This document shows positions 13,637 through 36,305 of a stretch of 41,648 nt of DNA, one piece after another. Each line of letters starts with the position of its first letter. The first letter of the stretch is position 1. Source of the DNA: Clostridia bacterium (lineage in GTDB: Bacteria > Bacillota > Clostridia > Oscillospirales > Butyricicoccaceae); the NCBI GenBank assembly GCA_017394205.1, contig JAFOPS010000042.1, positions 1 through 41,648 of the forward strand. The letters run 5' to 3'. Under the pieces are notes generated by a model. That model was not told the DNA's origin and did no database searches. It was given only the letters and a program-made list of their open reading frames with translations. The translations under genes and the position numbers were made by a program.

Positions 13637-14509
13637 ATGGAAAAAGAAAAGCGCCGCTTCGGCGACCGCAAGGACGGAAAGCTGATCCGCGATCTGGACG
13701 GGATGCACTTTATCACCCCGCTGATCTACCCCAACCGCTGTGACAACGAGGCCTATGTGGCCGAGCGGGTGGATCTGACGGCCATCAACGCCTATCTGGC
13801 GAAGAAAAACGCTCAGCCGTCGGATTTCCCCTATACCATGTTCCACGTGGTGGTGGCGGCGATCCTCAAGACCATCACGCTGCGGCCCAAGCTCAATCGC
13901 TTCATCGCCAGCAAAAACTTTTATCAGCGCAACGACATCTCGGCGGCCTTCGTGGTGAAAAAGATCTTTTCCGACGAGGGCGGCGAGGCGCTGGCCGTGG
14001 TCAAGGCCAAGGAAGACAGCACCATCGACACCATCCATCAGGATCTGTACGATCAGATCCGTTCGCTCCGTGGCGGCAAGGTGGACGGCTCCACCGACAG
14101 CATGGACATCCTCAACCGGATGCCCCGGTTTTTGAGCAAATTCCTGGTGTGGATCATCACCCGGCTGGACGTGCACGGATGGGTCCCCAACTTCCTCATC
14201 GAGAGCGACCCCTATTACTGCTCGGTGGTGCTGTCCAATCTGGGCTCTATCAAGCTGCGCTCGGGATATCATCATCTCACCAACTGGGGCACCTGCTCGC
14301 TGTTCTGCATTTTGGGTGAAAAAAAGGTGACGCCGGTCTTTCAGCCCGACGGCACTTACGCCATGCGCGAGACGCTGGATCTGGGTCTGACCATCGACGA
14401 GCGTCTGGCCGACGGCTATTACTATTCCAAATCCATCAAGCTGCTCAAGCACCTGCTGGAGCATCCCGAGCTGCTTGAAATGCCCGCAAAGGAGAAGATC
14501 GACTTATGA
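13637..14509 (+). CDS. CAT/E2-like acyltransferase homologue lacking catalytic His
   Basis: The 290-residue product resembles the catalytic domain of 2-oxoacid dehydrogenase E2 and chloramphenicol acetyltransferase, without lipoyl or E1/E3-binding domains. The conserved end motif DHRxxDG appears as DERLADG (254-260), so the catalytic histidine is glutamate (E255). The FHVVVAAILKTITLRPKLNR region matches the CoA-side helix of the fold. It lies 27 nt after marR and overlaps the acyl-CoA ligase by ATGA, so it likely acts with that enzyme. It may bind acyl-CoA without transferring it, or use another base. Confidence 0.7.
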   Translation: MEKEKRRFGDRKDGKLIRDLDGMHFITPLIYPNRCDNEAYVAERVDLTAINAYLAKKNAQPSDFPYTMFHVVVAAILKTITLRPKLNRFIASKNFYQRNDISAAFVVKKIFSDEGGEALAVVKAKEDSTIDTIHQDLYDQIRSLRGGKVDGSTDSMDILNRMPRFLSKFLVWIITRLDVHGWVPNFLIESDPYYCSVVLSNLGSIKLRSGYHHLTNWGTCSLFCILGEKKVTPVFQPDGTYAMRETLDLGLTIDERLADGYYYSKSIKLLKHLLEHPELLEMPAKEKIDL

Positions 14510-16237: not shown

Positions 16238-16272
16238 ACGTCCCCGGAAGCACAGCTTCCGGGGACGTTCTT
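16238..16272. terminator. Terminator hairpin, copy 1 of a repeated element
   Basis: A perfect 13-bp stem (16238-16250 with 16256-16268) with a CACAG loop, followed on the plus strand by a T-rich stretch. It sits between the convergent acyl-CoA ligase and hypA genes. Its 29-nt core (16239-16267) is identical to that at 27607-27635. Confidence 0.8.
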
Positions 16273-16636
16273 ATTCTTCCTGTTCTTCTCCGCCTTCGGC
16301 TTCGATCTCCTTGATGATACATTCGTTTCCGGTGAGCAGCCAGGTTTCGCCGGAATGGCAATAGGGGCATTCCCGTCCGTACTGCACGGTGGGATAGGTA
16401 CGCTCGCAGCTGCCGCAGAAGGTGACGGCGGGCGCGGTCTCGATCTTCAGCACCGCGTCCTTCAGCAGCGGATGCCTCCCCCGGAAATAGTTCCAGCAAT
16501 CCTCAAAGAGATCGGTCATGATGCCGGACACCTCGCCCACCGAAAGGGTCACCGAGCCGATGCGGGTCAGCTTTTCCTGCGCCGCCGTTTCGTCCAGCGT
16601 CTTGGCAAGGTGGAGGACGATCCCCATCTCATGCAT
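16271..16636 (-). CDS. hypA: Metallochaperone HypA
   Basis: The 121-residue product begins MHEMGI, the invariant nickel-binding HypA start (H2). The zinc site is formed by C74, C77, C90 and C93 in a CGSC/CPYC pair. HypA delivers nickel to [NiFe]-hydrogenase or urease together with HypB. I choose this ATG because the MHEMG start is diagnostic and overlaps the hypB stop (ATGCATGA). It is the last gene of a lipid-type operon, and no hydrogenase gene is in the window. Confidence 0.93.
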   Translation of the reverse strand: MHEMGIVLHLAKTLDETAAQEKLTRIGSVTLSVGEVSGIMTDLFEDCWNYFRGRHPLLKDAVLKIETAPAVTFCGSCERTYPTVQYGRECPYCHSGETWLLTGNECIIKEIEAEGGEEQEE

Positions 16637-17327
16637 CGGCGTCCTCTCCTTTTGCCGGGCGCGCCGCTTCCGCGCCGCGCCATTCCCGCAGCGCCTCCCG
16701 CAGCCACCGCTCCAGCGCCTCCATGCCTTCCCCCGTTTTGGCGGAAACGGGAAAGATCTCCGCCCGGGGATTGAGCCGGCGGATCCTCTCCCGGCAGCGC
16801 TCCTGATCAAAATCGAAGTATCCCGCCGTGTCGGTCTTGGTGATGATCACCGCGTCGCTCTCGCGGAACATCAGCGGATATTTCAGCGGCTTGTCGTCGC
16901 CCTCGGGCACCGAGAGCAGCATGATGCTTTTCCCGGCGCCGGTGTCATATTCCGCCGGGCAGATCAGATTTCCCACGTTTTCCAAAAAGAGCAGATCCAG
17001 CCGTTCCGTTCCCAAAGCCTCCACCGCGGCGGCCGTCATGCCGGCGTCCATATGGCACATGCCGCCCGTGTGGACCTGAACGGCGCGGGCGCCCAGCGCC
17101 TCGATGCGCTCGGCGTCGACGCTGGAGGCGATATCGGCCTCCATCACGCCGACCCGCAGCTCCTTCAGATCCCGGATCAGACGGCTGAGCAGCGTGGTCT
17201 TGCCCGAGCCGGCGGCGCTCATCAGATTGATCAACAGCACGCCGCTTTCCCGCATGCGCATGCGCAGGGCGCGAGCATCCGCATCGTTGGAGGCGGTGAC
17301 CGACGCCCCCAGTTCGATGATCCTCAT
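16629..17327 (-). CDS. hypB: HypB-type GTPase, copy 1
   Basis: The 232-residue product is a SIMIBI GTPase of the HypB family. P-loop SAAGSGKTT (37-45), switch region MEADIASSVDAERI, the metal site C-H in TGGMCHMDA, and ENVGNLICPAE are visible. The guanine-specificity NKxD motif reads TKTD. There is no N-terminal histidine-rich nickel store. It overlaps the preceding hypB-like gene by ATGA and is followed by hypA. Confidence 0.9.
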   Translation of the reverse strand: MRIIELGASVTASNDADARALRMRMRESGVLLINLMSAAGSGKTTLLSRLIRDLKELRVGVMEADIASSVDAERIEALGARAVQVHTGGMCHMDAGMTAAAVEALGTERLDLLFLENVGNLICPAEYDTGAGKSIMLLSVPEGDDKPLKYPLMFRESDAVIITKTDTAGYFDFDQERCRERIRRLNPRAEIFPVSAKTGEGMEALERWLREALREWRGAEAARPAKGEDADA

Positions 17328-17992
17328 TTTCCCCGCACCTCCTCGATCCGTTCCACAAGCCAGTCTGTCAGCGCCGCAAATCCCGCTTTGTCGTCGGGGG
17401 CCACCGGGAAGATCCGCATTTCCGGGTTGAGCGCCCGGACCCGGGCCTCCATGGCGGCCAGATCGAAATCAAACGCCGGCGCGGCGTCCATCTTGGTAAC
17501 GGCAAGTCCGTCGGAGACCGTGAACATCAAGGGGTATTTCAGCGGCTTGTCGTCGCCCTCGGGGACGGACAGCAGCATCAGCCGCAGGTCGGCTCCCACG
17601 TCGAACTCGGCGGGGCACACCAGATTTCCCACGTTTTCCAGCACCACCAGATCCAGGCCACGCACGTCCAGCCGCTCCAGGCCGCGGCGGGTCATGTCGG
17701 CGTCCATATGGCACAGGCCGCCGGTGTGGAGCTGGATGACGCGGGCCCCCGCCCGGGCGACAGCCCGGGCGTCCACGTCGGAATCCACGTCGGCCTCCAT
17801 CACGCCGATGGCGTAACGGTCCTTCAGCGCGTCGATCAGCCGCAGCAGCAGGGTGGTTTTTCCCGCCCCCGGCGAGCCCATCAGATTGATGAAAAAACAG
17901 CCCCTCTCCCGCAGCGATGCGCGGGTCTCGGCAGCGGCGGCGTCGTTGTCCGCCAAAACGCGCTCTTTCGTTTCAAAAATTTCGTAATTCAC
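17324..17992 (-). CDS. HypB-type GTPase, copy 2
   Basis: The 222-residue product (GTG start at 17992, with AAGGAGGA upstream and a GTGA overlap with the thioesterase stop) is a second HypB. P-loop GSPGAGKTT (39-47), TGGLCHMDAD metal site, ENVGNLVCPAEFD, and TKMD in place of NKxD. It shares long identical stretches with copy 1 (for example SVPEGDDKPLKYPLMF), but is divergent elsewhere, so the duplication is not recent. The two may form a heterodimer, since HypB dimerises through its metal site. Confidence 0.88.
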   Translation of the reverse strand: MNYEIFETKERVLADNDAAAAETRASLRERGCFFINLMGSPGAGKTTLLLRLIDALKDRYAIGVMEADVDSDVDARAVARAGARVIQLHTGGLCHMDADMTRRGLERLDVRGLDLVVLENVGNLVCPAEFDVGADLRLMLLSVPEGDDKPLKYPLMFTVSDGLAVTKMDAAPAFDFDLAAMEARVRALNPEMRIFPVAPDDKAGFAALTDWLVERIEEVRGK

Positions 17993-18723
17993 AGGGCGTT
18001 TTCCTCCTTTTGGAAGGTCATCCGCAGGCGGAAGATCCGTCTTCCGTCCCCGTCCGTTCCCTCGAAATAGCACGACGGATCTTCCCGCCCCCAGGCCACG
18101 GTGAAGGCGCTGCCCAGCCGGGCCTCTCCGCCGTATTCGATCTCCGCGGAGGCCAGCGGCCGGGCGAGGACCTCCGGCGGGAGCAGGTCCATCGCCAGCT
18201 CGGGATAGCGGGCGTTGTTCATATGGCCGTTCAGGTCGGCGGCGCTGTAAGGCACGGTGCAGCAGGTCTCACGGACGACGGGCAGCGACCGGGGCGCCCG
18301 GGGAAAGGGCGGCTCGGTCCCCAGCACCATCCCGGGAACGAAAACGCCGACCTCCTGCGGCGAGACCGGTTTACGGGTCTCGGCGTCCACCAGCACCCAC
18401 AGAGCCGCCGCCTGCACCGCCGTGTTCCCCGCCGCGTCCAGGATCCGGTAATACCGGGGGAACAGCAGATGCATCATGGGGCCGGGCCAGCTCTGCAGGG
18501 TGATCCGGTCGTCGTATTCGGGCACGGTGCGCAGCGTGACGTTCTGCAGGGTGAGCACCCACAAAAGGCCGCGGTCCAGCGTCTTTTCCCGACCGGCTCC
18601 CAGCGCCTCGGTATGGGCGATGGAGGCCTCCTGCAGCAGCGTGAACAGCGTCGCCGGCCGCAGCCGGCGGTGAAGATCCACGTCGGAGGCCAAGATCTTC
18701 CGCTCGATCTGATAAAGCTCCAT
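17989..18723 (-). CDS. Acyl-ACP thioesterase
   Basis: The 244-residue product (ATG at 18723, right after the ACP stop) has the double hot-dog fold of plant-type/bacterial acyl-ACP thioesterases: an N-terminal hot-dog beginning with DVDLHRRLRPATLFTLLQEAS and a C-terminal one with DLNGHMNNARYPE, the conserved segment carrying the catalytic Asn/His region. It hydrolyses acyl-ACP to free fatty acid. The upstream gene is an acyl carrier protein and the downstream gene is hypB copy 2, with a 4-nt overlap. Confidence 0.88.
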   Translation of the reverse strand: MELYQIERKILASDVDLHRRLRPATLFTLLQEASIAHTEALGAGREKTLDRGLLWVLTLQNVTLRTVPEYDDRITLQSWPGPMMHLLFPRYYRILDAAGNTAVQAAALWVLVDAETRKPVSPQEVGVFVPGMVLGTEPPFPRAPRSLPVVRETCCTVPYSAADLNGHMNNARYPELAMDLLPPEVLARPLASAEIEYGGEARLGSAFTVAWGREDPSCYFEGTDGDGRRIFRLRMTFQKEENAL

Positions 18724-18725
18724 GC

Positions 18726-18980
18726 TCAGCCCTTCCTGCTCAGCTCCCGCTCGATGGCGTCGGCCACGTCGCCGACGGTCTGCATCTTCGACCATTTTCG
18801 GTGCGGGATCTGAATGTCAAAGGCGCTCTCCAGCCGGCAGATGATCAGGATCAGCCCCATGGAGTCGATGGCGGTGTCGGTGTTGATGACCGTGTCTTCC
18901 CGCAGCTCCGCGTTTTCCATATCGGGAAAGCTCTCTCTCACCGTTTCGGCGATCTGTTTGATGATCTCATTTCTCGTCAT
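18726..18980 (-). CDS. Acyl carrier protein (dedicated)
   Basis: The 84-residue acidic four-helix protein carries the 4'-phosphopantetheine attachment motif as DSMG, with S40 as the modified residue (canonical DSLG). The helix II region (LILIICRLESAFDIQIP) fits the carrier fold. It lies between an AMP-forming ligase and an acyl-ACP thioesterase, overlapping the ligase by 14 nt. The context suggests a carrier loaded by that ligase rather than the FAS-II housekeeping ACP. Confidence 0.9.
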   Translation of the reverse strand: MTRNEIIKQIAETVRESFPDMENAELREDTVINTDTAIDSMGLILIICRLESAFDIQIPHRKWSKMQTVGDVADAIERELSRKG

Positions 18981-20310
18981 AAGCCTGCGCGACCTCCCAG
19001 CGTTTGATTTTCCCCGTGGCCGTGCGCGGCAGCGGCGACGGAGTCAAAAAAATCGTTTTGATCTGCTGCCCCCGGGGCAGCGTTTGATTCAGCGGCGCGA
19101 GCCGGGCGCTCAGCTCCGCCCGCTCCGCTTCCGTCCCCCGCGCCACCAGCGCCGGCGCGTTCCGGTGCAGAATGACGGTGAGCTCCCGTCCCCCCAGCGC
19201 GGCCTGCAGCGCCTGCTCGTATTCAGGCAGAAACAGCTTCGTGCCGTCCGGCAGGACCAGGATCTCTTTTTTCCGGCCCGTGACGTGCAGCAGGCCGTTT
19301 TCATCCAGGCGGCCCAGATCGCCGGTGTGCAGGACTCCGGATCGCAAGACCCGGGCCGTCTCCTCCGGCTGTCCGAAATAGCCCTGCATCATGCAGGTGG
19401 GGGCCTGGATCAGGATCTCCCCGTCCTCCGCCAACGTGATCCGGTCGTCGGGACAGACGGTCATGGCAAGGGGATCCTCGCCCAGGCTGAGGGCAACACC
19501 GGAGCTGGTCTCCGTGAGGCCGTAGCCGAAGGAGACCCGGATCCTCTTTGCCCGAAGGGCGTTCAGCAGCGGAGCCGGACAGTCGCCCGCGCCGATCAGC
19601 GCCAGGCGGAGCTCCGGATCCAGACAGTTCCCCTTCAGCAGCGCCGCCAGCAGCGCGGGCACCAGCGAAACGGCGGTGGGGCGGTAATAGGCAAAATCGT
19701 CGAAATAATGCCGCGGCCCGCGGCCCAGCGCCACGCAGGCGCCGCAGCTCAGCCCCCACAGCAGGCCGCAGACAAAGCCGAACACGTGATTCAGCGGCAG
19801 CAGACACAGCAGCGTGTCCTCAGGGCGCAGCGGCAGCAGCGCGCCGCCGTTAAATGCGCTGGCGCACAGGCTTTGCTGCGTGAGCACCGCGCTCTTGGCC
19901 CGGCGGGTGGTGCCGGAGGTGAAAAAGAGCATCTCCCCCGGACCGGGCACGTCGTCCCGGGTCAGGGCGGATTCCAGCTCCTCCCGCAGCTCCCCGTCGC
20001 CCCACAGCGCGCCCACGCGGGCGGCGGCGATCATCTCCCGCAGGTGTGAGGGATCGGCGGTCTCGTCCAGCAGCACGGTCCGCACCCCGGCGCCGGGGGC
20101 GGCCAGCAGCGTTACGACGCATTCTGCGCTGCCGTCGCACAAAACGCCCAGCGACGCGAGCCCCTGTTCCCGAAGCTCTGCTTCCCGGGTGCTCACCCGC
20201 TGCAAAAGCCGGGAGAAGGTGAGCTCCTGCTCCCCCTGCCGGAGCGCGGGTGCGTCGGGGGTCAGTCCGGCCCAATGCGTCAGCATCCCGGAAAAGCTGT
20301 GAAAGCGCAT
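18967..20310 (-). CDS. AMP-forming ligase, probable acyl-ACP synthetase
   Basis: The 447-residue product (ATG at 20310, with AAAGGAGAGG upstream) is a compact ANL ligase. The P-loop is SGTTRRAK (132-139), with Arg replacing the usual Gly after TT. GYGLTETSSG, HTGDLGRLDENG and the terminal PRTATGKIK with catalytic lysine are present. It is about 60-120 residues shorter than acyl-CoA ligases, and is fused in operon with an ACP, so loading of that ACP with an acyl group is inferred. It is the first gene of a six-gene minus-strand unit. Confidence 0.82.
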   Translation of the reverse strand: MRFHSFSGMLTHWAGLTPDAPALRQGEQELTFSRLLQRVSTREAELREQGLASLGVLCDGSAECVVTLLAAPGAGVRTVLLDETADPSHLREMIAAARVGALWGDGELREELESALTRDDVPGPGEMLFFTSGTTRRAKSAVLTQQSLCASAFNGGALLPLRPEDTLLCLLPLNHVFGFVCGLLWGLSCGACVALGRGPRHYFDDFAYYRPTAVSLVPALLAALLKGNCLDPELRLALIGAGDCPAPLLNALRAKRIRVSFGYGLTETSSGVALSLGEDPLAMTVCPDDRITLAEDGEILIQAPTCMMQGYFGQPEETARVLRSGVLHTGDLGRLDENGLLHVTGRKKEILVLPDGTKLFLPEYEQALQAALGGRELTVILHRNAPALVARGTEAERAELSARLAPLNQTLPRGQQIKTIFLTPSPLPRTATGKIKRWEVAQAYDEK

Positions 20311-20539: not shown

Positions 20540-21928
20540 ATGGAAAAGAATCTGCGCATCTGCATCATCGGCGGCGGTCCCGCCGGCCTGTCTGCGGGCA
20601 TGTATCTGGAGCAGAAGGGCTACGAGAACTACACCATCCTGGAGCGGCAGGACCGTGTGGGCGGCAAGTGCTGGTCTCCCACCTACAACGGCCGGCGCTA
20701 TGAGATGGGCGCCATCATGGGCGTGCCCTCGTATTACGCTGTGCACGACGTGGAGGAATTCTGTGGCATCACCCACGACGGGCCCAAGCTCAACCGCAAC
20801 TACAAAAATTCGCAGGGCCAGGTCATCGAGCCCTTCGAGCCCAAAAAGAATCTCCTCAAGATCCCCCGTCTGCTGAAAATGAAAAAGCAGGTCAAGCTGT
20901 TCGGCGAGCTGCTGGAATCCAAGTACAAGGGCTATGACGTGAACGGTCACCGGGGCGTGGCCGAGGGGCGCTACGAGGGCTTTTCCCAGCAGAGCGCCAA
21001 GCGCGAGCCCGTCAGCGGCGAAAACCCCAACCTGAAGGATCTGGCGCTTCCCTTCAAAGAGTTCTGCCGCATCAACAATGTGGATCTGGTGCAGGACATC
21101 TGGATCGGACCGTACACCTCCTTCGGCTACGGCTATTTTGACGAGATCCCCGCGGCCTACGTGCTGAAGTATCTGGACTTCCAGACCACCATGAATTTCG
21201 TCAAGGTCAATCTGTGGACTTGGAAAAACGGCACCCAGTATATCTGGGAGCAGCTCAACGAGCATCTCAAGCACCCCGCCCGTCTGAACAGCACCATCGA
21301 AAAGGTGGAGCGCCGCGGCGGCAAGGTGTATGTCACCGTCAACGGTCAGGTGGAGGAGTATGACAAGATCATCGTCACCGCGCCCCTCTACATCCCCAAC
21401 AAGCGGGCCGACGGCCAGGTGGGCATGGTGGATTACTTCGACACCCGGGACGACGAGCGCGCCCTCTTCTCCAAGATCGATTACGAGCGCTATGACGTGC
21501 AGGCCGTCCTCACCAAGCCCGAGGATCATCCCGAGATCTCCTACTACGTCTTCGACAACATGGTTCCCCAGCGTCTGGGCCACCTGATGGTCTATTACCG
21601 CCGCTGGAAGGATCAGATCGACCAGGTCATCACCACCTACGCCCTGCGCAAGCACCGCGATTCGGAGGAGATCCCCTATGAGAAGTGCCGCCAGATGGTG
21701 CAGGACGATCTGAAGACCATGCACAACCCCGCCAGGGAGGTCATCAACGAGTGGAGCGTCTACTACTTCCCCCATGTTTTCTCCGAGGACTATGCCTCCG
21801 GCTGGTATGACAAGGTGGAAGCCATGCAGGGCAAATACGATACCTTCTACGCCGGTGAGATCATGAGCTTCGGCGACATGGACGAGACCGCCGAATACAG
21901 CCGCGAGCTGGTGGAGCGCTTCTTCTGA
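20540..21928 (+). CDS. FAD-dependent polyenoic fatty acid isomerase-like protein
   Basis: I place the start at the ATG at 20540 (462 residues) because it follows CTGGAGGA and begins right at the Rossmann fold. The dinucleotide loop is GGGPAG (11-16) with E35 closing strand 2, then RVGGKC, as in amine-oxidase-fold flavoproteins. Several segments (GRRYEMGAIMGVPSY at 51-65, FGYGYFDEIPAAYVLKYLD at 195-213, FYAGEIMSFG at 436-445) match my recollection of the Cutibacterium acnes FAD isomerase PAI, which turns linoleic acid into trans-10,cis-12 conjugated linoleate. That match is from memory, not a search. An extra loop (about 140-165) makes it longer than PAI. It is the first gene of a four-gene redox operon. 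Confidence 0.75.
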   Translation: MEKNLRICIIGGGPAGLSAGMYLEQKGYENYTILERQDRVGGKCWSPTYNGRRYEMGAIMGVPSYYAVHDVEEFCGITHDGPKLNRNYKNSQGQVIEPFEPKKNLLKIPRLLKMKKQVKLFGELLESKYKGYDVNGHRGVAEGRYEGFSQQSAKREPVSGENPNLKDLALPFKEFCRINNVDLVQDIWIGPYTSFGYGYFDEIPAAYVLKYLDFQTTMNFVKVNLWTWKNGTQYIWEQLNEHLKHPARLNSTIEKVERRGGKVYVTVNGQVEEYDKIIVTAPLYIPNKRADGQVGMVDYFDTRDDERALFSKIDYERYDVQAVLTKPEDHPEISYYVFDNMVPQRLGHLMVYYRRWKDQIDQVITTYALRKHRDSEEIPYEKCRQMVQDDLKTMHNPAREVINEWSVYYFPHVFSEDYASGWYDKVEAMQGKYDTFYAGEIMSFGDMDETAEYSRELVERFF

Positions 21929-21998: not shown

Positions 21999-23543
21999 AT
22001 GAAGTTTTACAAAGACCACTATGACGTCGTCATCATCGGCGGCGGTCTTGCGGGTATGGCCTGCGCTTTGCAGCTTCAGGCCTGGGGCATCCGGGACATT
22101 CTGATCCTGGAAAAGCACAATCTGCCCGGCGGTCTGGCCACCGATTTTGTGCGCAACGGCTTTGAAATCGAAGCCACGCTGCATGAGATGATGTCCATCG
22201 GCACCAAGGAGCATCCCCTGAAGGTGGGCCAGTTTTTTCGGGATATGGGCGTGGATATCGACTGGCTGCCCGTGCCCGAATGTTACCGGGTGGTGCTGCC
22301 CGGCTCCGGGATCGACGCCACGCTGCACGAGGGCTATGAGACCGTGGCCCGGGAGGTGGACGCCGTATGTCCCGGCACCTACGACAAGGTGCACGAGCTG
22401 ATGCTTTTGTGCCGCCGGGTATATGACAGCATGAACATCCTCTCCGTCACTCCCATGAGCAAGGTGCAGATGCTGATGAAGCATCCCGATTTTGTCAAGA
22501 CGGTGGGCTACAGCGCCACCGAGGTCATCGACACCTTCGGTCTGCCCAAAAAGGCGGTGGAGATGCTCACCCCCTACTGGATCTATGTGGGCAACCGGAT
22601 GGACGACCTGCCCTTTACCATTTACGCCTTCCTCATGGCCGACTATTTCACCGGGAGCTACGTCTGCCGGGGCTACAGCCACGAGATGAGCATGAAGATG
22701 GAGCGCAAGGTGGAGGAAAACGGCGCCCAGTTCGAGTTCCGTCAGGAAGTGGAAAAGATCCTTGTGAAAAACGGCAAGGTCTATGGCGTGCGCACTGCCC
22801 GGGGCGACGAGATCCACTGCGATTATGTCGTGTCCGGCGCCTATCCCAACCGGGTGTATTCCCAGATGATCGAGCCGCTCAGCGAGGTGCCCGAAGGCGC
22901 TGTGAAGATGGTCAACGGCCGCGCCCTGTCGGTGTGCCCCGTCAGCGTGATCCTGGTGCTGGAGGGCAAGCCGGAGGAGCTGGGCATCACCAACTATTCC
23001 ACCTTCTCGGGCGACACCATGGACACCAACGAGATCTGGAAGAATTACCAGAACCTCACCGAGCCTTATAACTACATCACCACCATCTGCCTCAACCACG
23101 CCAACCCCCATTGCGTGCCCGAGGGCTATACGCAGCTTTCCATCACGGCGCTCCCCCTCAATCAGCCCTTTGCCGACGTCAAGGAGGAGGACTATCACGC
23201 CCTCAAGCGCCGTCTGGCAAACGAGATGATCGAGACCTATCTCCGCCACACCGGCATCCCCGATTTCCGGGACAAGATCGTGGAGATCGAGGTTGAGACC
23301 CCCATGACCATCGCCCATTATGTGGGTGCGTGGAAGGGCAGCATCTACGGCTACTCCCACTCCCTCAGCGACCACGCCGTGGCAAGACTGCAGATGAAGG
23401 AAAAGGATCACTTTATCGAGGGTCTGGAGTTTGCCGGAGCCCACGGCATGTCGGGCGACGGCATGGGTCCCCAGATCACCAACGGCCGCGCCGCGGCCAA
23501 GGCCATCCGCGAGGATAAGGAAAAGAAGGAGGCGGCAAAATGA
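21999..23543 (+). CDS. CrtI/saturase-like FAD oxidoreductase
   Basis: The 514-residue product starts at the ATG after GGAAAGGAAG. It has an N-terminal FAD loop GGGLAG (14-19), then EKHNLPGGLATDF, and ends with the CrtI-type FAD-binding motif in which EGLEFAGAH is followed by GDGMGPQITNGR. This is the phytoene desaturase/retinol saturase superfamily, whose members desaturate, isomerise or saturate C=C bonds of long hydrophobic chains. No carotenoid synthesis genes are nearby. Beside an isomerase-like protein and electron-transfer proteins, a double-bond reductase of fatty acids is my inference. It overlaps the next gene by ATGA. Confidence 0.82.
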   Translation: MKFYKDHYDVVIIGGGLAGMACALQLQAWGIRDILILEKHNLPGGLATDFVRNGFEIEATLHEMMSIGTKEHPLKVGQFFRDMGVDIDWLPVPECYRVVLPGSGIDATLHEGYETVAREVDAVCPGTYDKVHELMLLCRRVYDSMNILSVTPMSKVQMLMKHPDFVKTVGYSATEVIDTFGLPKKAVEMLTPYWIYVGNRMDDLPFTIYAFLMADYFTGSYVCRGYSHEMSMKMERKVEENGAQFEFRQEVEKILVKNGKVYGVRTARGDEIHCDYVVSGAYPNRVYSQMIEPLSEVPEGAVKMVNGRALSVCPVSVILVLEGKPEELGITNYSTFSGDTMDTNEIWKNYQNLTEPYNYITTICLNHANPHCVPEGYTQLSITALPLNQPFADVKEEDYHALKRRLANEMIETYLRHTGIPDFRDKIVEIEVETPMTIAHYVGAWKGSIYGYSHSLSDHAVARLQMKEKDHFIEGLEFAGAHGMSGDGMGPQITNGRAAAKAIREDKEKKEAAK

Positions 23544-24730
23544 GCATCAAGGTCAAAGGCTTTTTGAAGGACGTAGGCGGCGCCTCCCGCGTCACCGCGC
23601 TGCGGCAGCAGTCCATTGACAACGCCTCCGCCAAGGCCGATCCCCGGGATCCCATCCGCGCCCTGGCCGACGCCCTCCACCCCGCCTCCATGCGGTTTCA
23701 GGTGGTCTCCGTGCGGGATTCTTCCCCCACGGCAAAAACCTTCCGTCTGAAAAGCACAGACGGCCATATCCCCGTTTTTCAGTCGGGTCAGTACGTCAAC
23801 TTCCGTCTGAAGATCGGCGAAAGCGAGCTGACCCGTCCTTATACGATCAGCTCCGCCCCCTATGAGGCCCGGGGCAAGGACGGCTATATCGAGATCACCG
23901 TCCGCCGCAACCGCCCCTATCTGGTGCCCGATTGGCTGTTTGAGCACGCCGTCCCCGGCACCGAGCTGGTGGGCAACATGCCCTTCGGCACCTTTTACTG
24001 GGAGCCGATGCGCGACAGCAAAAACATCGTCGCCCTGGCGGGCGGCAGCGGCATCACCCCCTTCTTCTCCATGGCAAAGGAGATCGTCCGGGGCAAGATG
24101 GGCGACGCCCGCATCACCATCCTTTACGGATCGGTGAAGAGCGACGACATCATCCTCCGGGACGAGCTGGAGGCGCTGGAAAAGGAGTGCGACCGGGTCA
24201 AGGTGGTCAACGTCCTGTCCGGCGACCCGGACTGGCCCGGCGAAAAGGGCTTTATCACCCGGGAGCTCATTGAAAAGTATTCCGGCGAGGATCCCACCTA
24301 TTTCTTCTGCGGGCCGCTGGTGATGTTCCGGCTGATCCAAAAGATCATGGACGAGATGGGCGTCACCTGCCGCCGGTTCCGTCACGATGTGCTCAGTCAT
24401 CCCGCCGATCCCACCCAGATCGAGGGCTGGCCCGCAGGCAACGAGACCAAGACCTATTCCATCACGGTGAAGCGGGGCGTCAGCGAGACCGTGATCACCG
24501 CCTCCGGCGCCGAGCCCGTGGCTGTGGCGCTGGAGCGAGCCGCCATCCCCGTGGACACCCACTGCCGGGGCGGCGAGTGCGGCTATTGCCGCAGCCAGCT
24601 TTTGTCCGGTGAGATCTTTGTTCCCGCCTTTGGTGACGGACGGAGACTGATGGACAAGGAAATGGGCTGGTTCCACGCCTGCAGCACCTGGCCCCTCAGC
24701 GATCTGACCATCAAAATCCCCATTCTGTGA
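23540..24730 (+). CDS. FNR-type reductase with C-terminal [2Fe-2S] ferredoxin
   Basis: The 396-residue product has an unusual N-terminal extension (1-50), an FAD-binding domain with RPYTISS (99-105), an NAD(P) domain with GGSGITPF (168-175) and FFCGP, and a plant-type [2Fe-2S] domain with C342, C347, C350 and C381. Such reductases pass electrons from NAD(P)H to a partner enzyme, in aerobes usually an oxygenase. No oxygenase is present in this operon, so the likely acceptors are the two flavoproteins encoded just upstream. Confidence 0.9.
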   Translation: MSIKVKGFLKDVGGASRVTALRQQSIDNASAKADPRDPIRALADALHPASMRFQVVSVRDSSPTAKTFRLKSTDGHIPVFQSGQYVNFRLKIGESELTRPYTISSAPYEARGKDGYIEITVRRNRPYLVPDWLFEHAVPGTELVGNMPFGTFYWEPMRDSKNIVALAGGSGITPFFSMAKEIVRGKMGDARITILYGSVKSDDIILRDELEALEKECDRVKVVNVLSGDPDWPGEKGFITRELIEKYSGEDPTYFFCGPLVMFRLIQKIMDEMGVTCRRFRHDVLSHPADPTQIEGWPAGNETKTYSITVKRGVSETVITASGAEPVAVALERAAIPVDTHCRGGECGYCRSQLLSGEIFVPAFGDGRRLMDKEMGWFHACSTWPLSDLTIKIPIL

Positions 24731-24740
24731 GGTAACCTTT

Positions 24741-27572
24741 ATGGTAAAAGAAGTCAACCCCATGATCCACGTGAACGGCCTGGATTATCCCCAGACCGAG
24801 CACCGCTGCGACGACCCGGAAAAGGCAAAGCTTGTCAAAAAGCTGGCGGTGATGATCACCGACAATATCCCCCGCAAGCTGCCCGGCGGCATGAAGGAAA
24901 ACCATATGGATTTCTGGATCCTCGACCGGATGCTCACCAAGGACGAGGTCAAGTTCATGCTCTCCTTTGAAAAGCGCCGCGTGGGCCGCACCACCGCGGA
25001 GCTGGCACAGCGCAACAACATGACGGAGGAAGAGGCCCAAAAGGTCATCGACCATCTGATCTGGATCGGCATCCTGGAGCAAAACCGGGACAACGCCGAC
25101 CGGCATATCCAGTACATGATCCCCAAATGGGTGGTGGGCTCCGGCGAATACATGGTGGAGCACGCCACCCTGCCCGACGAGCATCCCGAGGTGGCCACCA
25201 TGTTCAATCTGGCGCCGCAGGAGCCGCTGGAGCTGGCGGCCAAGCTGGTGCCTCCCGGCGGCGCCGGCATCGGCATGCACGTCATCCCCGTGGAAAAGGC
25301 CATTGAGCACGAGAGTCAGAGCGTCAGCGTGGAGCATCTCTCCCACTGGCTGAACAAGTATGACAAGTTCTGCTCCATGGTGTGCGCCTGCCGCAAGGCA
25401 CAGCGCATCCGCGGCGAAGGCGTGGGCGATATCGAAGGCCACATGTGCATCGGCGTGGACGACATCGCCGAGTTTTTGGTGGAGACCGGGAAGGACGCCA
25501 AATATATCACCCGGGAAGAGGCCATGGATATCATCCTGCGGGCCGAGCGCAAGGGCTACGTCCACCAGATCACCAATCTGGACGGCCCCAACCGCATCGT
25601 GGGTATCTGCAACTGCTCTCCGGGCAGCTGCTACGGTCTGCGCACCAGCCAGCTGTTCAACACGCCCAACATGTCCCGCTCGGCTTACCGCGCCCACGTG
25701 GACGCCGCCAAATGCGTGGCCTGCGGCAAGTGCGTGGAGGTATGTCCCGCGGGCGCCGCCCGTCTGGGGCAAAAGCTTTGCAAGGCGGACGGCAGCAAGG
25801 TGAAGTATCCCATGCACGATCTGCCCGACGACAACGTGTGGGGCGAGGATCGCTGGAACCGGGATTACCGGGAAACCAACAAGCTCAATTGCTACGACAC
25901 CGGCACCTCTCCCTGCAAGACCGCCTGTCCCGCCCACATCGCCGTCCAGGGCTATATCCGCATGGCGGCCGAAGGGCGCTATGCCGACGCGGTGAAGCTC
26001 ATCCGCCGCGACAATCCCTTCCCCGCCGTCTGCGGCGCCATCTGCAACCGCCGCTGCGAGGACCGCTGCACCCGCGGCACGGTGGACGAGCCCGTGGCCA
26101 TCGACGAGATCAAGAAATTCCTGGCGCAGTGGGAGCTGGAGAATCCTCAGGCCTTTACCGTTCCCAGCGAGAACGGCGAGGGCAAGCAATGGAGCGAGTT
26201 CCCCATCGCCGTCATCGGCGCCGGCCCCGCCGGCCTGTCGGCGGCCTACTGGCTGCGCACCGAGGGCTATCCCGTCACCGTCTTTGAAAAGGAAGCCCGC
26301 CCCGGCGGCATGCTGACGCTGGGCATCCCCAATTTCCGGCTGGAAAAGACCGTTCTCGAAAAGGAGATCGACATCGTCCGCGCCATGGGCGCCGAGATCC
26401 GCTGCGGCGTGGAAGTGGGCAAGGACGTGACGCTGCAGCAGCTCCGCGAGCAGGGCTTTAAGGCCTTCTATGTGGCCATCGGTCTGCAGGGCGGACGCAA
26501 GCTGGGCGTCCCCGGCGAAGACGCCGAAGGCGTTCTGTCCGGCGTGTCCTTCCTCAAGCAGGTCAACCTGGGCAATCCCCCCGCCTTCGAGGGCAACGTG
26601 GTGGTCGTGGGCGGCGGCAACGTGGCCGCCGACGTAGCCCGCACCGCGCTGCGCTGCACCAAGGGCAAGGTGACCATGCTCTGTCTGGAGAGCGAGGCCG
26701 AAATGCCCGCCGCCAAGGACGAGGTGGCCGAGTGCCTCCACGAGGGCATCGACATCCGCAACGGATGGGGCCCCAAGGAGGTCCTCACCGAAAACGGCAA
26801 GGTCACGGGCGTGGTCTTCAAGCGCTGCACCTCTGTCTTTGACGCGGATCACCGCTTCTCCCCCAAATACGATGAGAACGACACCATCACCGTCCCCTGC
26901 ACCGCGCTGCTCACCGCCATCGGTCAGTCTGCCCAGTGGGGCGGTCTGCTGGAGGGCAGTCAGGTGAAGGTTCGTCCCAACGGCATCGCCGAGGCGGACA
27001 AGGTGACCGCCCAGACCGCCGAGCCCGATATCTTTGTGGGCGGCGATATCTTCCACGGCGCCCGCTTTGCCATCGACGCCATCGCCGACGGCAAGGAGGG
27101 CATGGTGTCCATCAACCGCTTTGTCCATCCCGGCCAGAGCCTGACCATCGGCCGCGACCTGCGGCAGTTTATCGAGCTGGATCGGGACGACGTGCTCACC
27201 GAGGGCTTTGATACCGCCGGCCGTCAGCGCCCCGGCATGAAGCCCGGCTCGGCCCGCGACAGCTTCAGCGACCTGCGTCTGCCCCTCACCGAGGAGCAGG
27301 TGAAGGCCGAGGCCAACCGCTGCCTCAAGTGCGGCGCCAGCGTGGTGGATCTCAACCAGTGCATCGGCTGCGGCCTGTGCACCACCCGCTGTGAATTCGA
27401 CGCCATCCATCTCACCCGCGACATCCCCGCCGCCTCCGAGATGCACACCGCCGAGGAAATGATGAAGCTGGTCGGCCCCTACGCCATCAAGCGCATGGGC
27501 AAGATCATCAAGAAAAAGGTCACCGGAAAGTCCGATTATCCCACGGAGCAGACCGTCGACGGCGAGGTGTGA
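24741..27572 (+). CDS. Multi-Fe-S GltD/NfnB-like flavoprotein
   Basis: The 943-residue product is modular. Residues 65-115 look like a winged-helix segment (TTAELAQRNN, then VIDHLIWIGIL). Residues 205-300 hold an unusual cysteine set (C211, C215, C217, C236, C290, C292, C297). A 4Fe-4S ferredoxin motif follows (C325, C328, C331, C335), then the GltD-type Fe-S helical domain (C384, C392, C396, C431, C435, C439, C443), an FAD loop GAGPAG (493-498), an NAD(P) loop GGGNVA (624-629), the second FAD motif GGDI (767-770) and a C-terminal cluster (C861, C864, C874, C877, C880, C884). This is the small glutamate synthase subunit/NfnB core with extra Fe-S modules, suited to moving electrons between NAD(P)H, ferredoxin and partner flavoproteins. 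Confidence 0.85.
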   Translation: MVKEVNPMIHVNGLDYPQTEHRCDDPEKAKLVKKLAVMITDNIPRKLPGGMKENHMDFWILDRMLTKDEVKFMLSFEKRRVGRTTAELAQRNNMTEEEAQKVIDHLIWIGILEQNRDNADRHIQYMIPKWVVGSGEYMVEHATLPDEHPEVATMFNLAPQEPLELAAKLVPPGGAGIGMHVIPVEKAIEHESQSVSVEHLSHWLNKYDKFCSMVCACRKAQRIRGEGVGDIEGHMCIGVDDIAEFLVETGKDAKYITREEAMDIILRAERKGYVHQITNLDGPNRIVGICNCSPGSCYGLRTSQLFNTPNMSRSAYRAHVDAAKCVACGKCVEVCPAGAARLGQKLCKADGSKVKYPMHDLPDDNVWGEDRWNRDYRETNKLNCYDTGTSPCKTACPAHIAVQGYIRMAAEGRYADAVKLIRRDNPFPAVCGAICNRRCEDRCTRGTVDEPVAIDEIKKFLAQWELENPQAFTVPSENGEGKQWSEFPIAVIGAGPAGLSAAYWLRTEGYPVTVFEKEARPGGMLTLGIPNFRLEKTVLEKEIDIVRAMGAEIRCGVEVGKDVTLQQLREQGFKAFYVAIGLQGGRKLGVPGEDAEGVLSGVSFLKQVNLGNPPAFEGNVVVVGGGNVAADVARTALRCTKGKVTMLCLESEAEMPAAKDEVAECLHEGIDIRNGWGPKEVLTENGKVTGVVFKRCTSVFDADHRFSPKYDENDTITVPCTALLTAIGQSAQWGGLLEGSQVKVRPNGIAEADKVTAQTAEPDIFVGGDIFHGARFAIDAIADGKEGMVSINRFVHPGQSLTIGRDLRQFIELDRDDVLTEGFDTAGRQRPGMKPGSARDSFSDLRLPLTEEQVKAEANRCLKCGASVVDLNQCIGCGLCTTRCEFDAIHLTRDIPAASEMHTAEEMMKLVGPYAIKRMGKIIKKKVTGKSDYPTEQTVDGEV

Positions 27573-27605: not shown

Positions 27606-27636
27606 GCGTCCCCGGAAGCACAGCTTCCGGGGACGC
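27606..27636 (+). terminator. Terminator hairpin, copy 2 of a repeated element
   Basis: A 13-bp perfect stem (27606-27618 with 27624-27636) with loop CACAG lies 33 nt after the flavoprotein operon. The core is identical over 29 nt to the copy at 16239-16267. Only a weak T-rich tail follows. Confidence 0.65.
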
Positions 27637-32246: not shown

Positions 32247-32673
32247 AATGCTCCTCCAGCGCGTCTACGGCGCGCAGATAGCCGTCGCCGCCCATCCCCG
32301 TAATGGTTTTGATGCAGGCGGCGCGGACATAGCTCACCCGGCGAAACGCCTCCCGCTCCTCCGGTTTGGAGAGATGCACCTCCACGGCGGGGACGGGAAC
32401 GGCCCGCAGCGCATCCAGCAGCGCGATGCCGGTATGGGTATAGGCGGCGGGATTGAGCACGATGCCGTCGGCCCCGTCAAAATAGGCCTGCTGCACGGCG
32501 TCCACCAGATCGCCCTCGTGGTTGGATTGGACGAAGCGGACCTCGATCCCCTTGTTTTCGCAATAGGCGCGGATGCGTGCCTCCAGCTCCCCGTAAGTTT
32601 CCCTGCCGTAGATCTCCGGCTCCCGCAGCCCCAAAAGATTGAGGTTGGGGCCGTTGATGATCCAAATTTTCAT
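32230..32673 (-). CDS. aroQ: Type II 3-dehydroquinate dehydratase
   Basis: The 147-residue product is the small dodecameric class. It starts with the typical WIINGPNLNLLGLREPEIYG, with the catalytic tyrosine in IYG, followed by NPAAYTHTG and VEVHLS with the catalytic histidine. It converts 3-dehydroquinate to 3-dehydroshikimate. Its start overlaps the AroE-AroK stop by ATGA. Confidence 0.95.
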   Translation of the reverse strand: MKIWIINGPNLNLLGLREPEIYGRETYGELEARIRAYCENKGIEVRFVQSNHEGDLVDAVQQAYFDGADGIVLNPAAYTHTGIALLDALRAVPVPAVEVHLSKPEEREAFRRVSYVRAACIKTITGMGGDGYLRAVDALEEHYARRH

Positions 32674-33902
32674 AGGCGGAAATCCTCCCCGATCTCCGCC
32701 GCGGCTGCCTGGGCCGTGCCCTCGCCGTGGACGCGGGCGTCGCAGGCGGCGATATAGCGGAGATAGCGCTCCTCGTAGCGCTGGCGCATGGCGTCGGCAG
32801 TGCGGGCAAGAGGCCGGTCCTCGGTGGGGAGCAGCAGCTCCAGCGGACGGTCGATAAAATACAGCCGCCCGTTTTGCCGCAGACGGCGCAGATTCTCCGA
32901 GCGGAGGATCACGCCTCCGCCGGTGGCGATGACGCAGCCGGTTTTGCGGGCGGCCCGGGCCACGGCGCGGCTCTCGGCCTCGCGGAAGGCCGCTTCACCC
33001 TGCTCGTCGAATATGCGGGTGACGGGCATACCGAACGCCCGGGCGATCTCCTCGTCGGTGTCGATCAGCTCCCGGCCCATCTTTTCCGCCAGCAGGCGGC
33101 CCACGGTGGTCTTGCCGCTGCCGGGCATGCCGATGAGAACGATGTTCTGCTTTTCGCCGTGGATGCGGCGATAGGCGCGCTCCAGCGTGCCCTCGGGCAG
33201 CGTCCGGCCCAAAAACAGCTCGGCCGCCGCCGCGGCCTGGGCTGTCAGCATATACAGGCCGCCCTGGCCCCGCGCGCCCTGCTCCCGGGCCTGCAGCACC
33301 AGACGGGTGCGCATGGGGTTGTAAACGGCGTCGATGACCCCCTCCAGCCAGCCGAAGGAGGTCAGGTCCACGGCCTGCCCCTCGGGGTCGGGCTCCATGC
33401 CGCAGGGGGTGGCGTTGATAAGGATCTGAACGGGAAGCTCCCGGGTCTCGGCGTAAGACAGGACGCCCTCGCCTCCGCTGCGGCCCGCCCGGTACACGGC
33501 GGCGGCTCCCAGCGCCTTTGCCACGGCCATGGCCGTGCGGGAGGTGCCGCCGGTGCCCGCGATCAGGACGGTCTTGCCCTGTACCTCCAGCCCGGTGCGG
33601 CGGATGAGCGCCGCCATGCCGTCAAAATCGGTGTTGTATCCCACCAGACGCCCATCCCGGCAGATCACGGTGTTCACCGCGCCGATGGCGGCGGCCCGGC
33701 GGTCCAGCTCGTCCAGATAGGGGATCACGGCCTGCTTATAGGGCATGGTGACGTTGATCCCCGCAAACGCCCGCGCCGCGAAAAAGGCGGGCAGCTCTTC
33801 GGGGGCGAGCTCCTTCAGTTGATAGTCATAGTCCCCCAGCAGCCGGTGGATCTCCGGGGAAAAGCTGTGGGAAAGGTTCTGTCCGATCAATCCGTATTGC
33901 AT
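32670..33902 (-). CDS. aroE-aroK: Shikimate dehydrogenase-shikimate kinase fusion
   Basis: The 410-residue product joins two consecutive pathway enzymes. Residues 1-250 are AroE: SHSFSPEIH, catalytic K56 in MPYK and D92 in NTDFDG, and NADP loop GTGGTSR (116-122). Residues 252-410 are AroK: Walker A GMPGSGKT (258-265), DTDEEI, GGGVI and the lid EDRPLA. Shikimate made by the first half is the substrate of the second. There is no frameshift or stop at the junction, which is a short linker near residue 250. Confidence 0.95.
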   Translation of the reverse strand: MQYGLIGQNLSHSFSPEIHRLLGDYDYQLKELAPEELPAFFAARAFAGINVTMPYKQAVIPYLDELDRRAAAIGAVNTVICRDGRLVGYNTDFDGMAALIRRTGLEVQGKTVLIAGTGGTSRTAMAVAKALGAAAVYRAGRSGGEGVLSYAETRELPVQILINATPCGMEPDPEGQAVDLTSFGWLEGVIDAVYNPMRTRLVLQAREQGARGQGGLYMLTAQAAAAAELFLGRTLPEGTLERAYRRIHGEKQNIVLIGMPGSGKTTVGRLLAEKMGRELIDTDEEIARAFGMPVTRIFDEQGEAAFREAESRAVARAARKTGCVIATGGGVILRSENLRRLRQNGRLYFIDRPLELLLPTEDRPLARTADAMRQRYEERYLRYIAACDARVHGEGTAQAAAAEIGEDFRL

Positions 33903-33918: not shown

Positions 33919-35022
33919 TCATTCCGTCAGCCAGCCCGCGCCGAAGCGCCCCATCAGCAGGTCGCACAGGGCCAGCGCCGCGGCGCTGTCGACCGCGACG
34001 GCCGCCCGGTGGACGATGCAGGGGTCGTGCCGTCCGCGCAGGGTGAGGGTGGTATCTTCTCCGCGGACAAAGTCCACGGTTTTTTGCGGTTGTCCGATGG
34101 AGGGGGTTGGCTTGATCGCCGTTTGGATCACAAGGGGCATCCCGTTGGTCACGCCGCCGTTGATCCCGCCGTTGTGATTGGACGCGGTGCGCACCCGCCC
34201 GTCCTCCATATAATAAGGGTCATTGGCCTGAGAGCCCCGCATGTCCGCCAGCGAAAAGCCGTCGCCGAAGGCCACGCCCTTGACGGCGGGAATGGCGTAA
34301 AGCGCCCGGGCAAGGACGTTTTCCGTCCCGTCGAACCAGGGCTCGCCCACGCCCGCGGGGACGCCGCAGACCGCCGTTTCCAGCACGCCGCCCACGCTGT
34401 CCCCCGCCTCCTTTGCCGCAAGGATCGCCCGCTTCATCCGCTCGCCGGCCTCCCGGGACAAGACCGGGAAGGCCATGTTTTCCAAAGACGCGAGCTCCGC
34501 CCGGAGCTCTTCTTCCCGCAGGGAAAACCGACGGTCGCTTTCGCCGCCGCAGCGCAGGATATGGCTGCGGATCACGATGTTTTTCCTTCTGAGCGCGGGC
34601 AAAACCACCGCTCCGGCGGCCACCAGCGCCGCCGTGATCCGCCCGGAAAAATGTCCGCCGCCCCGGGCGTCCTGAAAGCCGCCGTATTTCATCTGGGCGG
34701 CGTAATCCGCGTGGCCCGGACGGGCCAGCGTTTTGATCGCTTCGTATTCCTCGCTGCTTTGCGCCCGGTTGGGGATAAGGATGCACAAAGGCGTGCCGCA
34801 GGTGAAGCCCCGGCAGACGCCGCTGACGATCTCAAAGGGGTCTTCCTCCCGGCGGAAGGTGGAAAGCTCGTCCGTCGGGCGGCGCAGGGCAAGCTGCGCG
34901 GCGATAACATCCCCGTCCACGGGGATGCCCGCAGGCAGTCCGTCCAAAACGGCGCCCAGCATCGGCCCGTGGCTCTCTCCGAAAATGGTGACGGAAAGAG
35001 CCGTTCCCATGGTGTTTTTCAT
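33919..35022 (-). CDS. aroC: Chorismate synthase
   Basis: The 367-residue product forms chorismate from EPSP with reduced FMN. Signature segments: GESHGPMLGAVLDGLPAG, RPGHADYAAQMKYG, DARGGGHFSGR and SNHNGGINGG. I start at the ATG at 35022, which overlaps the aroB stop (ATGA), although its ribosome site is weak; coupling to aroB would explain that. No flavin reductase is adjacent in this operon. Confidence 0.95.
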   Translation of the reverse strand: MKNTMGTALSVTIFGESHGPMLGAVLDGLPAGIPVDGDVIAAQLALRRPTDELSTFRREEDPFEIVSGVCRGFTCGTPLCILIPNRAQSSEEYEAIKTLARPGHADYAAQMKYGGFQDARGGGHFSGRITAALVAAGAVVLPALRRKNIVIRSHILRCGGESDRRFSLREEELRAELASLENMAFPVLSREAGERMKRAILAAKEAGDSVGGVLETAVCGVPAGVGEPWFDGTENVLARALYAIPAVKGVAFGDGFSLADMRGSQANDPYYMEDGRVRTASNHNGGINGGVTNGMPLVIQTAIKPTPSIGQPQKTVDFVRGEDTTLTLRGRHDPCIVHRAAVAVDSAAALALCDLLMGRFGAGWLTE

Positions 35023-36305
35023 CGGTTCCACCCCGTTTCGATGCGTGATTTCAGCTCGTCCGGCGAGATTTCTCTGCAATAGCCCGCCCCCGCCTCGTCG
35101 GCAAAGACGGCTGCGATCCCCCGCGCCGTCCGCTTTTTATCGTGGAGGGCGGCAGCAACGACGGCTTCCGGCTCCAGCGCGCAGCGGGTGGGCAGTCCCA
35201 GCCGCTGAAGCAGCGCGGTCAGCCGCGCCCGCAGCGCCGGGGCGCACATGGGCAGCATGCCCAGCGCCACGCATTCTCCGTGATAGAGCGCGCCGCCGGA
35301 CAGCGCCTCGACGCCGTGGCCCACGGTGTGTCCGAAATTGAGCAGGCGGCGGGGCCCCTCGTCCCGCTCGTCCGCCTCCACCAGCGCCCGCTTGATCTTC
35401 AGCGCCCGCAAAAGGAGCGTTTCGATCTTTTCATACGGGTCGCCCGCTTCGATCTCCGCAAGCAGTTCCCCGTCGCGCACTACGGCCGTTTTGACGATCT
35501 CCGCCATGCCCTCGGCCAGCAGCCGGGGCGGCAGGGTCTTCAGCAGATCGGGGTCGATGAGCACGGCCCGGGGCGGCCAAAACGCGCCCACGCTGTTTTT
35601 CACGCCGCAAACGTCCAGGCCGGTCTTGCCGCCGATGGAAGCGTCAGCCTGGGCCAGCAGCGTGGTAGGCACGTTGTAAAAATCCACGCCCCGCATCCAG
35701 CAGGCGGCGGCAAAGCCCGCCGTGTCCCCCACCGATCCGCCGCCTACGGCGCAGACACAGTCGGTCCGGGTAAACCCATGCTCCAGCATCACGCTCCACA
35801 GCCGCTTGGCGCCGGAAAGGGATTTTCCCGCAGCGCCCTCGTCCAGCGTCACCGTCACGGGTTCTCCGCACCGTTCCGCCAGAGCGGCGGCATAACCCGC
35901 CGGAACGCCCCGGTCGGTGACCACCAGCACCCGGCGGTCCAGATCAAACAGCTCGCCCGCCCGGGCCAGCGCGCCGCGGGCGACGGTGACGCCGTAGCCG
36001 CCTCTTTCGCTCTCTACCCACAGGGTGTCGCCGGTTTCCGCCCCCAGACGGCGCTGACGGGCCCGGGAAAGGGCCATAGCGCATTTCAGCAGCCGCAGAT
36101 ATTCCTCCCGCAGGCAAGGGTCCTCCACCCGCCGGGCGTTTTGCTCCAGCACCCGCGCCTCCCGCGCCGGGTCGAAGACGGGGATGCCCCGTTCTTTTTT
36201 ATACTGCGCGATGCGGGACGCGGCCTCCATCCGGCGGACAAACGCCGCCGCCAGATCCGCGTCCGCCCGGTCGATCTCCTGCCGGGCCAGCTCCAGCTCG
36301 TCCAT
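35019..36305 (-). CDS. aroB: Chorismate mutase-3-dehydroquinate synthase fusion
   Basis: The 428-residue product has an AroQ-class chorismate mutase helix bundle at 1-88 and AroB at about 92-428. In the mutase part, residues aligned with the E. coli active site are present (R8, R25, K36/K37, D45, R48, E49). In AroB the NAD loop GGGSVGD (188-194), NVPTTLLAQADASIGGKTG, zinc-ligand regions AEIVK (E268), NFGHTVGHGVE and YHGECV are all present. The two activities are not consecutive: AroB is step 2 of the pathway and the mutase acts after chorismate. Confidence 0.92.
   Translation of the reverse strand: MDELELARQEIDRADADLAAAFVRRMEAASRIAQYKKERGIPVFDPAREARVLEQNARRVEDPCLREEYLRLLKCAMALSRARQRRLGAETGDTLWVESERGGYGVTVARGALARAGELFDLDRRVLVVTDRGVPAGYAAALAERCGEPVTVTLDEGAAGKSLSGAKRLWSVMLEHGFTRTDCVCAVGGGSVGDTAGFAAACWMRGVDFYNVPTTLLAQADASIGGKTGLDVCGVKNSVGAFWPPRAVLIDPDLLKTLPPRLLAEGMAEIVKTAVVRDGELLAEIEAGDPYEKIETLLLRALKIKRALVEADERDEGPRRLLNFGHTVGHGVEALSGGALYHGECVALGMLPMCAPALRARLTALLQRLGLPTRCALEPEAVVAAALHDKKRTARGIAAVFADEAGAGYCREISPDELKSRIETGWNR

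Follow-up and report, generated by a model that had tools for sequence, protein, structure and literature searches.

A PAI-family fatty acid isomerase gene in a conserved divergent cluster with a putative reductase: a candidate biohydrogenation module of rumen anaerobes

The isomerase gene and the features of its locus

The stretch of DNA analyzed here (the window) is contig JAFOPS010000042.1, 41,648 nucleotides long, from a Clostridia bacterium of the family Butyricicoccaceae (assembly GCA_017394205.1). It represents the entire contig, and the 1.9-Mb genome bin to which it belongs is 97% complete and contains a single gene for a polyunsaturated fatty acid isomerase (PAI). The original prediction had read this gene as encoding a PAI-like flavoprotein set in a redox operon, and genes for a RetSat-like flavoprotein, a reductase and a GltD-like protein indeed lie downstream of it on the same strand, while a second set of genes runs divergently from it. 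The features of the locus are as follows.

20540-21928, + strand: PAI-family polyunsaturated fatty acid isomerase with flavin adenine dinucleotide (FAD), 462 amino acids
20954-21034, + strand: extra loop 1 of the isomerase, residues 139-165, about 23 residues longer than in PAI
21389-21427, + strand: insert 2 of the isomerase, residues 284-296, about 10 residues
21999-23543, + strand: flavoprotein of the CrtI/CRTISO/RetSat superfamily (RetSat-like), 514 amino acids, candidate conjugated-diene reductase (saturase)
23540-24730, + strand: ferredoxin-reductase-like protein with FAD- and NAD(P)-binding domains and a C-terminal plant-type [2Fe-2S] domain, which probably donates electrons to the RetSat-like protein
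24741-27572, + strand: GltD-like NAD(P)H-binding flavoprotein with [4Fe-4S] domains, 943 amino acids, likely electron supply
27606-27636, + strand: terminator-like hairpin of 14 pairs, ending the + strand operon
18967-20310, - strand: AMP-forming acyl ligase, divergent from the isomerase gene
18726-18980, - strand: dedicated acyl carrier protein (ACP), 84 amino acids
17989-18723, - strand: acyl-ACP thioesterase (FatA/FatB type)
16271-18001, - strand: HypA and two tandem HypB-like nickel chaperones, next to the cluster in roughly one locus in four

The isomerase gene starts with ATG, immediately preceded by a GGAGG ribosome-binding site. When its product was searched against the PDB sequences, the top match was the Cutibacterium acnes PAI (2B9W; E=2.3e-138, 465 bits, 47% identity), which left the second-ranked match, an amine oxidase with an E value of 1.6e-10, more than 400 bits behind. 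A fold search with the predicted model also placed 2B9W first (E 2.7e-41, 47% identity; next 2.3e-16), the model being of moderate quality (pLDDT 66, pTM 0.68) and too weak for pocket analysis. Both by sequence and by fold, the protein is homologous to 2B9W over its full length and closer to it than to any other flavoenzyme, and the three motifs cited in the original prediction align with the C. acnes enzyme. The N-terminus carries the FAD-binding GxGxxG motif, IIGGGPAGLSAG, with invariant glycines and a Pfam NAD_binding_8 match, and Pfam assigns the protein to Amino_oxidase (77 bits), the superfamily that includes PAI. No MCRA family, the type of oleate hydratase-like linoleate isomerases, was present among its Pfam or listed NCBIfam matches. 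In C. acnes PAI the fatty acid is held by a clamp of a carboxylate-binding arginine and an aromatic residue, which we take to be R88 and F168; counted along the aligned 2B9W chain, R86 and F195 of the window protein stand opposite these two, and both are invariant in the window protein and 80 relatives (81/81). Judged from its sequence, the 462-residue protein is securely a member of the PAI-type isomerase family.

Two insertions set it apart from C. acnes PAI. The extra loop that had been predicted around residues 140-165 was located by alignment and model at 139-165; it measures 26-27 residues in all 81 aligned homologues, and C. acnes PAI has 4 residues opposite it. Insert 2, which the prediction did not mention, was found by alignment in all 81 members of the clade linked to the RetSat-like gene, and is missing from PAI and from three order-level relatives unlinked to such a gene.

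A conserved divergent cluster

A scan of 84,980 species genomes yielded 423 PAI relatives, and the best 80 of these (84-90% identical) were taken together with their flanks for comparison of the loci. The results showed a recurrent layout in which the ligase, ACP and thioesterase genes occupy one strand, and the PAI, RetSat-like and FAD/[2Fe-2S] reductase genes, often joined by the GltD-like gene, occupy the other. The RetSat-like gene was present, adjoining the PAI gene, in 79 of the 80 loci, the ligase in 76, the reductase in 75, the ACP and the thioesterase in 73 each, the GltD-like gene in 55, HypB in 22 and HypA in 19; genes missing from a locus mostly reflect loci that end at a contig end. 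Functional residues were retained throughout: the A10 lysine of the ligase GK motif (72/72), the phosphopantetheine serine of the ACP (74/74), the Asp/Asn/His motif of the thioesterase (73/73) and the [2Fe-2S] cysteines of the reductase (74/75, the remaining row being gapped). In the window, the reductase gene overlaps the RetSat-like gene by 4 bases, and the ligase and ACP genes overlap as well. The only other neighbor common to at least six of the 80 loci was an ABC transporter, found at scattered positions in 14 loci, and the boundary of the unit is thus well defined. Two further candidates for membership were rejected: the downstream thioredoxin and nitrilase genes, which are separated from the operon by the 14-pair hairpin and a new promoter-like site and are not conserved in the 80 loci, and a CoA ligase at 14506, which recurred in one of the 80 loci with a weak match.

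The RetSat-like protein was assigned by its family matches and its fold, and has the CrtI/RetSat superfamily fold together with an FAD domain. Its gene and the reductase gene were always adjacent in the loci examined, including a genome (G286) in which the pair is unlinked from PAI, and including relatives of 33-35% identity. The evolutionary distances of these two proteins correlate at 0.85, the highest value of all cluster pairs; distances of PAI correlate at 0.69 with those of the ACP, 0.58 with the thioesterase and 0.33 with the RetSat-like protein. In a set of 295 genomes from the order, RetSat-like genes with at least 58% identity were restricted to PAI-positive genomes, G286 among them, while RetSat-like/reductase pairs of 33-35% identity were found in PAI-negative genomes (L136, L137 and L138). 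Two more such pairs were observed in a Mogibacterium metagenome-assembled genome (MAG), pointing to a wider two-component family. The RetSat-like proteins of the cluster fall into three types that switch eight times on the PAI tree; therefore, the reductase pair seems to have been exchanged as a unit. In one locus (L024, CACWYB010000006.1) two RetSat-like matches, 70 and 59% identical to the protein of the window, follow PAI in tandem, possibly representing two successive reductions.

HypA with tandem HypB genes recurs beside the cluster in the window and in L019, L026, L035 and L044, and in L138 it lies beside other RetSat-like/reductase pairs. A NiFe hydrogenase was rejected as the reason for these chaperones, since its large subunit was found in none of the 12 genomes searched. 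Elsewhere in the window, inspection by eye suggests a shikimate operon that includes AroF, AroA and AroC and in which the genes at 32670-33902 and 35019-36305 encode AroE-AroK and chorismate mutase-AroB fusions.

Distribution and constraint

A PAI homolog was found in only 7 of 394 genomes of the host order. The host genus and family were otherwise negative among the genomes listed, and genomes from two other families have copies of 86-88% identity. Sampling of the class gave 2 further positives among 391 genomes and sampling of the phylum 5 further among 398, all with more distant PAI. Many uncultured bacteria carry the cluster, chiefly ones from cows, sheep and goats; ruminant-gut MAGs account for at least 67 of the 80 loci, given that 32 titles name a ruminant animal and 35 bear a code that we take to denote rumen uncultured genomes, while the remaining 13 bear codes without an assigned source; these 80 are the best-scoring of the 423 relatives. 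The data are MAGs, no isolate carrying the cluster having been found among the locus titles. A check for plasmid carriage matched a single plasmid record, at 28% identity. As for the host itself, a possible spore-former, Spo0A was found in its genome above the cut-off and a search of the same genome for SpoVAA found none.

RpoB identity between the PAI-carrying genomes is mostly 59-67%, falling to about 40% with a Sphaerochaetaceae MAG, whereas PAI is 84-90% identical between the same genomes. At the protein level identity was 88% for PAI and 49-80% for the other cluster genes, a contrast that may be somewhat inflated because the sample was picked by PAI similarity. Recent transfer was not supported as the cause of the high PAI identity, since the divergence at fourfold-degenerate sites, 0.48 in PAI, is close to that of its partners (0.41-0.49), with a saturation expectation of 0.34-0.39. 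Given that the silent sites of PAI are nearly saturated, its conservation is better explained by strong purifying selection, and PAI is therefore under exceptional purifying constraint, unusually strong for a catabolic enzyme. Transfer at some time is nevertheless indicated: the distribution is patchy, and in the two Sphaerochaetaceae MAGs (L044 and L082), the only cluster carriers among 101 genomes of that family, PAI nests among clostridial PAIs. The base composition of the Sphaerochaetaceae cluster is host-like (0.459, compared with 0.461 at rpoB).

Proposed function, alternatives and known systems

We propose, with a probability of roughly 0.55, that the PAI-family isomerase is the putative first step of a module by which rumen anaerobes biohydrogenate, and so detoxify, polyunsaturated fatty acids (PUFA). 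Rumen biohydrogenation is described as isomerization followed by reduction (PMC6037716), and it detoxifies PUFA (PMC2836310); genes for an isomerase and a putative NAD(P)H-dependent reductase are here co-located and co-occur in one organism. In the proposed scheme, R86 would bind the carboxylate and F195 would act as the aromatic clamp, together holding free linoleate or linolenate over FAD, and PAI would turn this PUFA into a conjugated diene, which would be the trans-10,cis-12 isomer if the enzyme behaves as C. acnes PAI does. The RetSat-like flavoprotein would then saturate one bond of the diene, with NAD(P)H electrons reaching it via the FAD/[2Fe-2S] reductase encoded next to it and probably also the GltD-like [4Fe-4S] protein. 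Ligase, ACP and thioesterase would load fatty acids on the dedicated carrier and later release them, serving either reduction on acyl-ACP or disposal of the product, and the cell would benefit from the removal of toxic PUFA. In this scheme we infer the direction of the reaction, the substrate, the isomer, the reductase step and the ACP step. Desaturation by CrtI-type enzymes requires an electron acceptor, and this anaerobe keeps a dedicated NAD(P)H reductase, which favors the reductive direction for the pair. The weakest part is the role of the ligase/ACP/thioesterase set, for which carrier-bound reduction, product handling and a biosynthetic route are all possible. More tentatively, at somewhat less than even odds, the cluster would be the basis of trans-10 linoleate biohydrogenation in uncultured rumen Clostridia and some rumen spirochetes, and the RetSat-like/reductase pair would represent a class of anaerobic conjugated-diene saturases not described before, with an ACP-bound fatty acid as a possible substrate.

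Several observations weigh against the biohydrogenation module. The RetSat-like protein scores well below both NCBIfam cut-offs (crtI_fam 127.9 against 238.1; carot_isom 95.6 against 586.9), and its nearest structure is the gamma-carotenoid desaturase 4REP (template modeling score, TM, 0.80; E 7e-27). Among order-level relatives, L015 and L017 have PAI without the cluster, and L016 has PAI with only ligase, ACP and thioesterase beside it. HypA and HypB are unexplained by the proposed pathway, ruminant MAGs are heavily sampled, and the ligase/ACP/thioesterase set suits biosynthesis at least as well as breakdown. The last point leads to a different reading, namely that the cluster serves neither detoxification nor biohydrogenation and that ligase, isomerase, CrtI-type redox enzyme and thioesterase together make, on the dedicated ACP, an unusual fatty acid, conjugated or partly saturated, for the cell's own lipids or for a signal. 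This would agree with the constancy of ligase, ACP and thioesterase, which matches that of the redox genes, with the arrangement in L016 and with the unusually strong constraint on PAI, as expected for a precise product; yet the 80 loci have no conserved ketosynthase, acyltransferase or dedicated exporter in the vicinity of the cluster, PAI retains the arginine that binds a free carboxylate, and the dedicated NAD(P)H reductase speaks rather for net reduction, so that we consider a biosynthetic role distinctly improbable.

It is slightly less probable again that PAI acts as an isomerase only and the RetSat-like/reductase pair has another substrate, their neighborhood being due to shared regulation or hitch-hiking. 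The distant pairs in PAI-negative genomes imply other uses for the pair, and PAI distances track those of the ACP and thioesterase better than those of the RetSat-like protein; however, PAI and the RetSat-like gene stay adjacent in 79 of 80 loci amid otherwise differing surroundings, and the close RetSat-like subfamily co-occurs exclusively with PAI, even where unlinked. Drift of the enzyme to another substrate or isomer (e.g., linolenate, a trans-11 product or an ACP-bound fatty acid) by way of loop 1 and insert 2 is unlikely, if less so than either of these, and is compatible with the biohydrogenation module; the two insertions missing from PAI, the confinement of insert 2 to the RetSat-linked clade among the aligned sequences and an identity to C. 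acnes PAI of just 47% speak for it, while neither the clamp residues nor the surrounding motifs have changed. Finally, the idea of an ordinary amine oxidase-family enzyme resembling PAI by chance, to which the Pfam Amino_oxidase match could be held to point, is refuted by the gap of more than 400 bits and by the same ranking in the fold search: the best match is PAI rather than an unrelated amine oxidase, and the clamp that the original prediction had singled out for checking is invariant.

The cluster is a candidate for the means by which rumen microbes hydrogenate plant oils. If the trans-10 reading is true, its carriers would be candidates for the bacteria behind the rumen trans-10 shift, trans-10 fatty acids in the rumen being tied to milk fat depression. 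C. acnes produces trans-10,cis-12 conjugated linoleic acid (CLA) and goes no further, and it is judged unlikely to be the only or main trans-10 producer in the rumen, where such producers have not been unambiguously identified (PMC7339423). According to one report, Butyrivibrio genomes have no linoleate isomerase gene (PMC6249431), and according to another the biohydrogenation reductase is missing from KEGG, COG and Pfam (PMC4478896). Having isomerase and putative reductase in one conserved cluster makes the questions of the trans-10 producer and the missing reductase directly testable, and offers a marker gene for comparing animals with and without the trans-10 shift. That a rumen spirochete can hydrogenate was observed long ago (Yokoyama and Davis, 1971, cited in PMC9533493), and the Sphaerochaetaceae copies of the cluster fit this. 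PAI homologs in rumen MAGs are already known from a 2023 report based on gene presence and correlation (PMC10019597); these belong to the same enzyme family, habitat and higher taxa (Lachnospiraceae and Oscillospiraceae) as those studied here, whereas in the available part of that report neither a gene cluster nor a partner reductase, an ACP set or an analysis of conservation is described. Nor was a description of the cluster or reductase found in the literature searched, which lacks most subscription journals.

The window PAI shares with C. acnes PAI its whole-length sequence, fold, FAD-binding N-terminus and carboxylate/aromatic clamp; it differs in having the 139-165 and 284-296 insertions, and its gene belongs to a conserved cluster that also encodes a putative reductase. 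The linoleate isomerase and CLA reductase of Butyrivibrio fibrisolvens follow the same proposed logic of isomerization and then NAD(P)H-dependent reduction of a conjugated diene, but the Butyrivibrio product is cis-9,trans-11, unlike the trans-10,cis-12 proposed by analogy for the window PAI. The CLA-HY/DH/DC/ER system of Lactobacillus plantarum is likewise a multi-enzyme route to linoleate saturation in a gut bacterium; it passes through hydroxy and oxo fatty acids with an MCRA-type hydratase, whereas no MCRA-type gene was seen in the present cluster. With the CrtI/CRTISO/RetSat superfamily (4REP, retinol saturase) the RetSat-like protein has in common its fold and FAD motif, and it is distinguished within that superfamily by scores far under the curated subfamily cut-offs and by its pairing with a dedicated FAD/[2Fe-2S] reductase.
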